Shown one piece after another: positions 40,354 to 43,101 of a stretch of DNA of 64,000 bases. Each line of letters opens with the position of its first letter. Within the stretch, counting starts at the first letter, position 1. The notes beneath the pieces are model-generated. The model was not told the DNA's origin. It did no database searches and saw nothing but the letters and a program-made list of their open reading frames with translations. Both the position numbers and the translations under genes were made by a program. This DNA is from Limisalsivibrio acetivorans (GTDB lineage Bacteria > Chrysiogenota > Deferribacteres > Deferribacterales > Geovibrionaceae). The DNA lies in assembly GCF_000421105.1 (NCBI RefSeq), contig NZ_ATWF01000001.1, positions 2,243,407-2,307,406 of the forward strand, in the 5' to 3' direction.

Positions 40354-41051
40354 ACTACGAAGGGATCCTGAACGAGGTCCTCCCAAAGCTGGAGGGGCTT
40401 AGCGTTCTTGATTACGTAGTGGGGCTGAACTATGTCTGCGTGAGGACGGAGGCAGGTTGCGGTCTGGGTTATGTTCTGCGTGATTTTGAGCCTGAGAGCT
40501 GTACCCTCCTGAGTGACGAGATAGAGGGTATGCCGGCGGCGGATGCGGCCCGCATTTATATGTCCGAAAACCTGCTTGATGCCGCCGTGGGCATGGCCGT
40601 TATAAACAGCACAGTGAGCGGCGGCAGGGATATTGACCCTCTAAAGGATACGGATTTCAGCGGGAAAACTGTGGGCATGGTGGGGCATCTGCGCCCCGTT
40701 CAGGCTATGATCGAAAGGCAGGGGGGCAGAGTGCATGTCTTCGAGTTAAAGGACAGAGAGGGGACGCTCAACCCCGAGGATGCGCCCGATTACATGCCAG
40801 ACTGCGATACCTTTATAATCACAGGTGTTACGCTCATAAATAAGACTCTGCACACCTATGAACCCTACATGAACGATAATGCGCAGAAGATAATCATAGG
40901 TCCGTCAACCCCCGTTGTGCAGGTTCTTGCAGACAGAGGTTACCTGCTGGGTGGCACAAAGGTTGTGGACTGTGAAAGGGTTATGAAGCTTGTGAGCCGT
41001 GGACAGGGTACAAGGCGCTTCGGCGATTCTGTCGCAAAGGTCTGGCTCTAG
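40350..41051 (+). CDS. DUF364 family protein (putative chelatase-fold/heavy-metal-binding)
   Basis: The protein has 233 residues. An N-terminal DUF4213-like part (VGLNYVCVRTEAGCGLGYVL) precedes a C-terminal Rossmann-like DUF364 part (KTVGMVGHLRPVQAMIERQGG, DTFIITGVTLINKTLHTY, IGPSTPVVQVLADRGYLLGG). The family is linked to metal or cofactor metabolism in some genomes but is not characterised well enough for a reaction. The ATGA overlap with hisE implies co-translation. It converges with the DUF547 gene with a four-base overlap. Confidence 0.85.
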   Translation: MNYEGILNEVLPKLEGLSVLDYVVGLNYVCVRTEAGCGLGYVLRDFEPESCTLLSDEIEGMPAADAARIYMSENLLDAAVGMAVINSTVSGGRDIDPLKDTDFSGKTVGMVGHLRPVQAMIERQGGRVHVFELKDREGTLNPEDAPDYMPDCDTFIITGVTLINKTLHTYEPYMNDNAQKIIIGPSTPVVQVLADRGYLLGGTKVVDCERVMKLVSRGQGTRRFGDSVAKVWL

Positions 41052-41755
41052 TCCGCCTTGTTAAGTGACCAGTCGTAATCGGCATTTTTTACCTTATCAA
41101 CCATGGAAAGCCCCTGCATATCAGGGTAGTATCTCCGGAAGAAGGCTAGGGTTCCGTTTGGAAAATCCTCATCGTACCAGTCGAATATCCTGCTTGCGTA
41201 GAGCCTGCTCCCTTCGATATAGTTTTTCTCACCGTTTCGCAGGAAACGTTTCGTCACCATGTCCAGCTGTACGTCGATAGTTTCCCCGCGGTAAGGCTCA
41301 TCCAGAAGCTTAGGGCACCCCATGGAGGCGCAGTTCACTGCGAAATGAATGCGGTTGTCCTTGAAGGTCGGGCGTATAATCTCATGCTCAATCTCATCCA
41401 GCGTCATCGGTGCGCATCCCACACGGCAGAACTCGATATCCCAAGGCGACTTGAACAGCCCACCGATATCCTTGATGGATTTGACCGGATAGTGTTTCAG
41501 AATCAGCTTCATAGTGCATGCGTTGTATGCATTTATGTATAGGGCGAGCTGATCGTTTCGGGGGAGATCATCCGGAACGGTGGTTTTTACACTGTCGAGG
41601 TAATCATCGAGTAGCGACTCGTTTCGCTTGAGGCCGTCATAGTCCACCAGACCGTTTTTAACGTATCTGTCCAGCAGCTCGGTGTAGATCGTAAGGTTAT
41701 CGGCATATGCCGTAACTGAGAGTAAAAATATCGTAATTGTAATAATATATCTCAT
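41048..41755 (-). CDS. Exported DUF547 protein
   Basis: The protein has 235 residues with a signal peptide (about 1-18, SVTAYADN). The DUF547 signature is present: LALYINAYNACTMKLILKHYPVKSI, WDIEFCRVGCAPMTLDEIEHEIIRP, RIHFAVNCASMGCPKLLDEPYRG. The conserved Cys/His pattern suggests a catalytic or metal site, but the family has no established activity. The second ATG (41755) gives the better spacing to GGGGGCG. It is a single gene, convergent with DUF364. Confidence 0.87.
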   Translation of the reverse strand: MRYIITITIFLLSVTAYADNLTIYTELLDRYVKNGLVDYDGLKRNESLLDDYLDSVKTTVPDDLPRNDQLALYINAYNACTMKLILKHYPVKSIKDIGGLFKSPWDIEFCRVGCAPMTLDEIEHEIIRPTFKDNRIHFAVNCASMGCPKLLDEPYRGETIDVQLDMVTKRFLRNGEKNYIEGSRLYASRIFDWYDEDFPNGTLAFFRRYYPDMQGLSMVDKVKNADYDWSLNKAD

Positions 41756-41817
41756 CATCGCCCCCGTATAACTAATAACACCCTGATGTCAGGAATTAAT
41801 CAAGCTAAATTAAATGC

Positions 41818-41847
41818 TTGACACTTTATTACCATGCGTGCTTTATT
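41818..41847 (+). promoter_or_regulatory. Promoter of the aroF attenuator transcript
   Basis: Perfect TTGACA (41818-41823), 18-base spacer, TTTATT (41842-41847). Transcription would start near 41854, so the leader-peptide ATG is at or very close to the 5' end of the RNA. Confidence 0.6.
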
Positions 41848-41853
41848 GTGCGT

Positions 41854-41937
41854 ATGGAAATGAAAAACTATTTTAACTACTTTTTTAGCAGCTACTTTTT
41901 TTACTTCTTCTTTAGGGAGAGGCTGTCTGAGGTGTAG
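41854..41937 (+). CDS. Phe/Tyr-rich leader peptide of the DAHP synthase gene
   Basis: The 27-codon frame encodes eight Phe and four Tyr. Residues 6-20 read YFNYFFSSYFFYFFF, so 12 of 15 are aromatic. This is the structure of pheL/tyrosine leader peptides that sense charged tRNA-Phe or tRNA-Tyr by ribosome stalling. It lies between a good promoter and a strong terminator (41965-42003), 112 bases before the DAHP synthase ATG. A second ATG at 41860 is an alternative start. No strong Shine-Dalgarno sequence is seen, so leaderless translation is possible. Confidence 0.9.
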   Translation: MEMKNYFNYFFSSYFFYFFFRERLSEV

Positions 41938-41964
41938 TTAAAATACCAAAAGTATATTAACAAA

Positions 41965-42003
41965 GGCCGCGGTCAGCTTCGATAAGCTCCGCGGCCTTTT
42001 TTT
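41965..42003 (+). terminator. Attenuator terminator upstream of aroF
   Basis: Long stem GGCCGC/GCGGCC (41965-41996), with an inner AGCTT/AAGCT helix around a CGAT loop, followed by seven T residues. It sits between the aromatic leader peptide and the DAHP synthase gene. It can only be a conditional terminator for that gene. The competing antiterminator helix was not resolved by eye. Confidence 0.9.
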
Positions 42004-42049
42004 ATGCCTGCGGACTGTATGAATCTGTACCCCGGTAACGGAGGAAAAG

Positions 42050-43066
42050 ATGATCGTAGTAATGAGGATGGACGCAGGAAAGGATGCACTTGAAGAGGTT
42101 GTGGAAAAGGCTGAGGAGCTCGGTTTCTCCCCCCACGTAATCTTCGGCAAAGAACGTAACGTAATCGGCCTTGTGGGGGTTAACGGTAAGCGTGAAAACG
42201 TTGGTGTTATCGAAGAGATGCCGGGTGTTGACCGCATTGTCCCCATATCTAAGCCGTACAAACTTGCCAGTAAGGAGGTCAAACAGGAGACCTCCATTGT
42301 CGATGTTGCGGGTGTTAAGTTCGGCGGTGACGAGGTTGTCGCCATTGCAGGTCCCTGCGCCGTTGAGAGTGAGGAGCAGATAGTCCGCTCCGCCCAGCAT
42401 GTTAAGGCAGCGGGTGCAAAGATGCTCCGTGGGGGCGCATTCAAGCCCAGAACCAGCCCGTATTCCTTCCAGGGCTTGCAGGAAGAGGGACTCAAACACC
42501 TTGCCACAGCCAGAGAAGAAACGGGTCTGCCCTTCTGCACCGAGGTTGTAAACCCCAGAAACGTGGACGTTGTTTATAAGTACACCGATATGTTTCAGGT
42601 GGGCGCCAGAAATATCCAGAACTTCGCCCTTCTCAGCCTCCTCGGTCAGACGGATAAACCCGTTCTGCTCAAGAGGGGAATGGCAACTACAATAGAAGAA
42701 TTCCTTATGGCCGCTGAATACATCCTCTGCGAGGGGAACAAGAACGTTATCCTCTGCGAGAGGGGTATAAGAACCTTCGAAACCGCCACAAGGAACACCC
42801 TTGATATAAGCTGTGTGCCTGTGGTTAAGGAGAAGTCCCACCTCCCCATCATCATAGACCCCAGCCACTCCGGTGGACACAGGCCTTATGTGACAGCCCT
42901 TTCAAGGGCGGCGGTTGCCGTGGGTGCGGACGGAGTTATTGTTGAGGTGCACCCCGAGCCGGATAACGCTATGAGCGATGCCGCCCAGACCATAAGTCCC
43001 GAGCACTTCGTGAAGCTCATGGGCGAGCTCAAAGCGGTTGCCCTCTCCATAGGCCGCTACATGTAA
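42050..43066 (+). CDS. aroF: 3-deoxy-7-phosphoheptulonate (DAHP) synthase, type I-beta with N-terminal regulatory domain
   Basis: The first enzyme of the shikimate pathway (PEP + erythrose 4-phosphate). The protein has 338 residues. A ferredoxin-like (ACT-type) domain at residues 1-70, as in the Thermotoga enzyme, is known to mediate Tyr/Phe feedback inhibition. It precedes the barrel with IAGPCAVESEEQI, KMLRGGAFKPRTSPYSFQG, VGARNIQNFALL, LLKRGMATTIEEFL, IIDPSHSGGHRP and IVEVHPEPDNAMSDAAQT. GGAGG precedes the ATG. The upstream aromatic attenuator adds transcriptional control to the expected enzyme-level control. Confidence 0.96.
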   Translation: MIVVMRMDAGKDALEEVVEKAEELGFSPHVIFGKERNVIGLVGVNGKRENVGVIEEMPGVDRIVPISKPYKLASKEVKQETSIVDVAGVKFGGDEVVAIAGPCAVESEEQIVRSAQHVKAAGAKMLRGGAFKPRTSPYSFQGLQEEGLKHLATAREETGLPFCTEVVNPRNVDVVYKYTDMFQVGARNIQNFALLSLLGQTDKPVLLKRGMATTIEEFLMAAEYILCEGNKNVILCERGIRTFETATRNTLDISCVPVVKEKSHLPIIIDPSHSGGHRPYVTALSRAAVAVGADGVIVEVHPEPDNAMSDAAQTISPEHFVKLMGELKAVALSIGRYM

Positions 43067-43079
43067 TAATCATTCCAGG

Positions 43080-43101
43080 GCCCCCGAAAGGGGGCTTTTT
43101 T
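43080..43101 (+). terminator. Rho-independent terminator of aroF
   Basis: GCCCCC-GAAA-GGGGGC stem-loop (43080-43095) followed by six T residues, 13 bases after the aroF stop codon. Confidence 0.95.

Follow-up and report, generated by a model that had tools for sequence, protein, structure and literature searches.

Organisation of the DAHP synthase locus

We analysed a 64,000-nucleotide stretch of the genome of Limisalsivibrio acetivorans (NZ_ATWF01000001.1, positions 2,243,407 to 2,307,406; hereafter, the window), and in particular the region ahead of a gene for DAHP synthase, for which a first-pass annotation made from the sequence had proposed control by an aromatic leader peptide. The features of the locus are given in Table 1. 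The gene had been assigned to the type I-beta DAHP synthases, and this is confirmed for both the catalytic and the FL domain by NCBIfam NF006421 (490.5 bits, residues 1-334) and by the structure of the Thermotoga maritima enzyme. TIGR01361 scores 401.6 bits, and the T. maritima structures 1rzm and 3pg9 are matched at full length (1rzm_A over residues 1-335). The coding sequence starts 50 nt beyond the leader hairpin, and it appears to be monocistronic because it has its own terminator directly 3'. The upstream gene, for which the NCBIfam search gave no match, lies on the opposite strand. Hence, the leader terminator can act only on transcripts begun in the leader.

Table 1. Features of the leader and DAHP synthase region, in window coordinates.
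Feature	Position	Strand	Basis or remark
Divergent 236-aa ORF, signal-peptide-like start	41048-41758	-	
-35 box TTGACA of the leader promoter	41818..41823	+	direct reading
-10 box TTTATT, weak, TGC just before	41842..41847	+	direct reading
Leader ORF MEMKNYFNYFFSSYFFYFFFRERLSEV, 27 aa, stop TAG (41935-41937)	41854..41937	+	direct reading; F/Y-rich ORF in 23/23 genomes
Control codons, 15 codons, 12 Phe/Tyr	41869..41913	+	direct reading
Segment 1, pairs with 41914-41945 (hairpin 1:2)	41869..41900	+	fold; duplex -24.3 kcal/mol, 0/200 shuffles
Segment 2; antiterminator 5' arm is 41919-41933	41914..41945	+	fold
Segment 3, antiterminator 3' arm, within terminator 5' arm and stem	41966..41980	+	fold; compensatory changes
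Intrinsic terminator 3:4, seven T	41962..42003	+	-24.5 kcal/mol; fold z -5.4; 23/23 genomes
DAHP synthase Shine-Dalgarno sequence GGAGG	42040-42044	+	direct reading
Type I-beta DAHP synthase, N-terminal ferredoxin-like (FL) regulatory domain	42050..43066	+	NCBIfam, structure matches
Terminator after DAHP synthase	43077..43098	+	

The leader of 27 residues with 12 aromatics in 15 was described exactly by the first-pass annotation, coordinates included: residues 6-20 contain eight Phe and four Tyr. When the region upstream of the DAHP synthase in the window was shuffled, this density was never reached (maximum 7 in 200 shuffles). Taken alone, six F/Y codons are no rarity at the DNA level in this AT-rich context, and the reversed control pattern has eight matches in the genome. 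Since composition makes such patterns common, the argument rests on conservation. One other genome match to the six-codon pattern (L115) precedes an unrelated GGDEF-like gene and was rejected as a leader.

A second DAHPS is part of the aromatic operon pheA-hisC-aroF-tyrA-aroA (L121:6990-15515), where no leader-like ORF or terminator was found ahead of pheA. In the genomes compared, the upstream regions of the second paralogue served as a control and contained no aromatic ORF, with at most 3 aromatics per 15. The aroA gene of this operon is followed by a 1077-aa ORF, in a single reading frame, that matches the cmk, ispH and rpsA domains.

Conservation of the leader in Deferribacterales

An orthologue that could be examined is present in 23 Deferribacterales genomes of families f1, f2, f3, f7 and f8 (69-100% protein identity). 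Families f4, f5 and f6 lack it and contain only the other paralogue or fragments. The conserved leaders that the first-pass annotation had suggested looking for are present in all 23 genomes, each of which has an F/Y-rich ORF starting with ATG and a terminator whose 5' arm can alternatively pair with the last part of the leader ORF. The aromatic run and the terminator always occur together; in none of these genomes was the run lost and the terminator kept. The aromatic ORF was not equalled by any of 200 shuffles in 22 genomes and had a p of 0.01 in the other.

The leaders themselves vary widely in sequence (e.g., MNNVKGYFNYFFSGFYFYFFFEGAA, MSRKYTYILLQTLKRFSFSCYSYYFFFFFNKSVRCTA, MKNLTFGLFKKSADSFFFNFFFFYFYKLRYTA, MLNRLFYGFFFGFFFYCFFSNRSVAV) and in length (23-41 aa), and what is kept is their aromatic content, their position, and the pairing of their 3' end with the terminator. 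This pattern bears on whether the ORF could encode a functional small hydrophobic protein, the terminator merely separating its transcript from that of DAHP synthase. Such a role would suit a hydrophobic peptide with a conserved ORF, and we nevertheless regard it as very improbable, given that neither the sequence nor the length of the peptide is maintained. Furthermore, the distance between terminator and DAHPS gene, 18-67 nt in all relatives but one, is only 18-27 nt in several of them, too little for another promoter.

Two local irregularities were observed. In the window, the end of the leader (41914-41937) is read in another frame than in the closest relatives. The homologous GTCTGA falls outside the reading frame, which ends 9 nt later at a TAG, the pairing of this stretch with the terminator arm being kept. 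In one genome (G009, L025), the DAHPS frame contains an in-frame TAG and is separated from the leader terminator by 168 nt; this is possibly a decaying or misassembled copy.

A fixed distance between promoter and leader start codon

The promoter that had been placed ahead of the leader was read there as a TTGACA and a weak TTTATT separated by a spacer of 18 nt, and the predicted transcription start is near 41854. A consensus promoter and terminator scanner reported neither this promoter nor the leader terminator, the former because its -10 box has no A at position 2, the latter because its stem is bulged. The distance from TTGAC[AT] to the leader ATG is 35-36 nt in 18 of the 23 Deferribacterales genomes (among them two f2 genomes in which automatic picking had chosen a wrong promoter). 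With a spacer of 17-18 nt, this leaves only 6-7 nt between the -10 box and the ATG in most of the 18, which would place the transcription start at the ATG itself. The other five genomes, all of genus g3 (Seleniivibrio-type), have 50-63 nt from -35 to ATG and a GGAG-like, or Shine-Dalgarno, sequence.

The fixed spacing suggests that the leader mRNA probably lacks a 5' UTR, and hence that the window leader probably has a leaderless start. The first-pass annotation had raised this as a possibility, and the idea is now strengthened. Alternatively, translation might depend on an ordinary ribosome-binding site or use the ATG at 41860, the second one, attenuation being otherwise the same. The GGAG ahead of the leader ATG in Seleniivibrio-type relatives lends this some weight. 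We consider it rather unlikely, because a Shine-Dalgarno sequence does not fit into the 6-7 nt between -10 box and ATG that most of the 18 genomes have, and because the distance from -35 to ATG is 35-36 nt in every genome that is not of the Seleniivibrio type. Leaderless attenuators have precedents: the rnTrpL RNA of Sinorhizobium meliloti begins at the trpL ATG (PMC7298713), and the leader peptide of ilvBNC in Corynebacterium glutamicum is cited in PMC4046766 as being made without a ribosome-binding site. Judging from the spacing, the leaderless arrangement of Deferribacterales would be unusually well conserved.

Mutually exclusive predicted structures in the leader RNA

The strong terminator with a T tract that had been claimed after the leader is well supported (Table 1). 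Its hairpin spans 38 nt (41962-41999), 24 nt 3' of the leader stop, and its T tract covers 41997-42003. The fold of the leader region contains both hairpins, at -50.5 kcal/mol (z -5.4), and none of 200 shuffles was as stable. The first-pass annotation had called for a fold of alternative structures, and this revealed an antiterminator: 41919-41933 pairs alternatively with 41966-41980, which blocks the terminator. The antiterminator fold (41905-41981) has -25.3 kcal/mol and a z of -3.6 against shuffles (0/200). In the relatives, the 5' arm of the antiterminator consists of the last codons and the stop of the leader, e.g., GGTGTACCGC with GCGGTACACC. Since the antiterminator is no more stable than the terminator at equilibrium, the switch depends on the order in which the RNA segments are made. 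Support for the 1:2 hairpin differs between lineages: it is strong for the window and for the relatives g2 and g3 and mixed for g4, and several further families do not exceed their shuffles. This unevenness suggests that an untranslated leader would terminate transcription in some lineages and be read through in others.

We modelled the ribosome by truncating the RNA where the terminator loop ends and hiding its 5' part either to the middle of the aromatic run (stalled) or to the stop codon. In each of the 23 genomes, the terminator 5' arm was bound upstream with a probability of 0.61-0.94 in the stalled state and was sequestered at 0-0.11 with the ribosome at the stop codon, in silico. With the same script, Escherichia coli pheL gave 0.84 stalled and 0.00 at the stop. 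Shuffling the intervening sequence also gave some switching (mean 0.46 vs 0.76 observed) because GC-rich arms pair readily; against shuffled spacers, single species ranged from 0 to 37 shuffles as good in 100, with 7/100 for the window, and taken singly a species often falls short of significance.

Covariation adds to these folds. The six core 2:3 antiterminator pairs are paired in 126 of 138 cells, vs 114.4 expected on permutation (0/10000), a signal that is only marginal with one representative per lineage (1320/40320 permutations as good). Compensatory changes occur in the relatives at three antiterminator positions: A-U/U-A, G-C/A-U, and C-G/U-A. A MAFFT alignment of the leaders puts the antiterminator arm wrongly between lineages.

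A further explanation would be that the leader binds a protein or a ligand (a T-box, a riboswitch, or a repressor) to terminate, the ORF being incidental. T-boxes control aromatic genes of Firmicutes, and TyrR or TrpR control DAHPS genes elsewhere. What is conserved here consists of codons and an alternative pairing, not an aptamer, and no Rfam family reached its gathering score in the leader, so that we see hardly any chance for this explanation. Sub-threshold Rfam matches (E up to 10) included Thr_leader (23.5 bits) and Phe_leader (RF01859; 22.9 bits, below its gathering score of 55, E 0.12), and the T-box covariance model gave no match in the leader even at E up to 10.

A model of attenuation and the amino acid probably sensed

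Together, the conservation, the antiterminator, and the stall and stop folds lend good support to the pheA/pheL logic proposed at first, and we consider it very probable that the element is a classical ribosome-mediated transcription attenuator placed before DAHP synthase, an enzyme that supplies precursors for the amino acids to which the leader would respond. In this model, the transcript would start with the A of the leader ATG or close to it, and the nascent RNA would be translated into the 27-aa peptide, probably from a leaderless start. As long as tRNA-Phe (in this species also tRNA-Tyr) is amply charged, the ribosome would reach the stop codon and cover segment 2; segments 3 and 4 would then pair, and transcription would stop at the terminator, short of DAHP synthase. 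Under shortage of Phe (or Tyr), it would stall on codons 6-20 and mask segment 1, so that segments 2 and 3 would pair, no terminator would form, and DAHP synthase would be transcribed. If the leader were not translated, the 1:2 hairpin would restore termination in the window species and in some other lineages.

The leader had been described as a Phe/Tyr sensor, and the two halves of this description fared differently. Phe codons are present in all 23 leaders (5-11 each), so Phe stands as the constant signal; Tyr codons vary from 0 to 5, with none in one leader, and Trp occurs once. This makes Phe likelier to be the main signal. The codon counts would also fit a leader that senses Phe only, the Tyr codons adding little or being spacers, as reported for aroR of C. 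glutamicum: in tests, the aroF operon of that species answered Phe, not Tyr, limitation despite the Phe-Tyr-Phe motif of its leader AroR (PMC11802643). We give sensing of Phe alone an even chance. Against it, four Tyr codons are interspersed in the run of the window, some of them early, where a stall would also work, and the sister genus keeps 12 F/Y residues out of 15, with exchanges between F and Y. Hence, a contribution of Tyr to sensing in the window is plausible.

Relation to known attenuators

The closest parallel in logic is E. coli pheL-pheA (RF01859), which has a Phe-rich leader, the same 1:2/2:3/3:4 arrangement, and the same modelled switch between stall and stop, but its target is pheA and not DAHPS. 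E. coli pheL is translated from a Shine-Dalgarno site. Control of DAHP synthase itself also has precedent. In C. glutamicum, an aromatic leader peptide attenuates the aroF operon in response to Phe (PMC11802643, PMC4046766); aroR differs in having only the Phe-Tyr-Phe motif and in belonging to an actinobacterium. In Acholeplasma, the uORFC-13-1 motif upstream of aroF combines a uORF with Phe codons and a terminator ahead of DAHP synthase; it is predicted only, in one genus and environmental sequences, and unlike the window leader with its 12-residue run it has an RBS and at least 1 Phe codon (PMC8632094). The S. meliloti trpL attenuator resembles the window in the RNA beginning at the leader ATG (PMC7298713), but is a Trp sensor of trpE(G) in an alphaproteobacterium. 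An old hypothesis of DAHP synthase attenuation concerns E. coli aroF-tyrA.

A 2010 survey described leader-peptide systems as known only from Proteobacteria and Actinobacteria, besides its own Firmicutes cases (PMC2965389). We found no such attenuator for Deferribacterota, Brocadiales or Desulfobacterota in the open-access literature; reports in subscription journals may exist. The claim of classical attenuation of the first shikimate step outside the usual groups thus stands as far as the lineage goes, a separate phylum for which we found none described, and not for the control of DAHPS, which has the above precedents. Mechanism and target are already known; lineage and breadth are new. This places leader-peptide attenuation, mostly documented in Proteobacteria and Actinobacteria, at the entry of the shikimate pathway in a separate phylum. 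The leaders also offer a natural series for the design rules of attenuators (leaderless or Shine-Dalgarno starts, with or without the 1:2 hairpin, and Phe, Phe/Tyr or Trp-containing sensors), and annotators gain a concrete small gene and a regulatory RNA for these genomes.

Similar leaders beyond the order

Of 119 DAHPS upstream regions, some duplicate records included, 47 contain an aromatic ORF followed by a terminator at a suitable distance, vs 0 of 575 shuffled regions. Family f10, which belongs to the same GTDB phylum and which we take to be Chrysiogenota-like, has a leader and terminator before DAHPS (L116-L118), with a Trp-containing YFWQYYFF. In Brocadiales, 8 of 30 DAHPS upstream regions have a leader (VFYYFRYY) and a terminator, and an antiterminator pairing is available with UUAGGG at the leader stop codon. 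A leader (FGRFFFSFRSVRPVA) and a terminator are also present in 10 of 28 such regions in one order of Desulfobacterota, where GUCCGUCCGG can pair with CCGGAUGGAC as antiterminator. A few Bacillota/Clostridia have similar DAHPS leaders and terminators. The evidence is evenly balanced on whether these form a broad and largely undescribed class of DAHPS leader attenuators, spanning Deferribacterota and Chrysiogenota-like bacteria, Brocadiales, Desulfobacterota and some Clostridia, with sensors tuned per isozyme (Phe- and Trp-type paralogues in one genome) and leaderless starts of fixed spacing in Deferribacterales.

In the Desulfobacterota order, DAHPS paralogues have different leaders (L170 and L177 of genome G106, also L176 and L165), one of Phe type (RRFFFSFRSVHPVV) and one of Trp/aromatic type (MIRSKTRGFFWRWWWISENAG..). 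Their sequences suggest that the isozymes are each attenuated in response to a different aromatic amino acid. In Desulfobacterales (L083-L108), tandem terminators lie behind the leader ORF, CCCCGGATGGACC..GGTCTGTCCGGGG followed by AAAGCCCCGGGA..TCTCGGGGCTTT; only the first overlaps the antiterminator, with which it has a 10-bp pairing.
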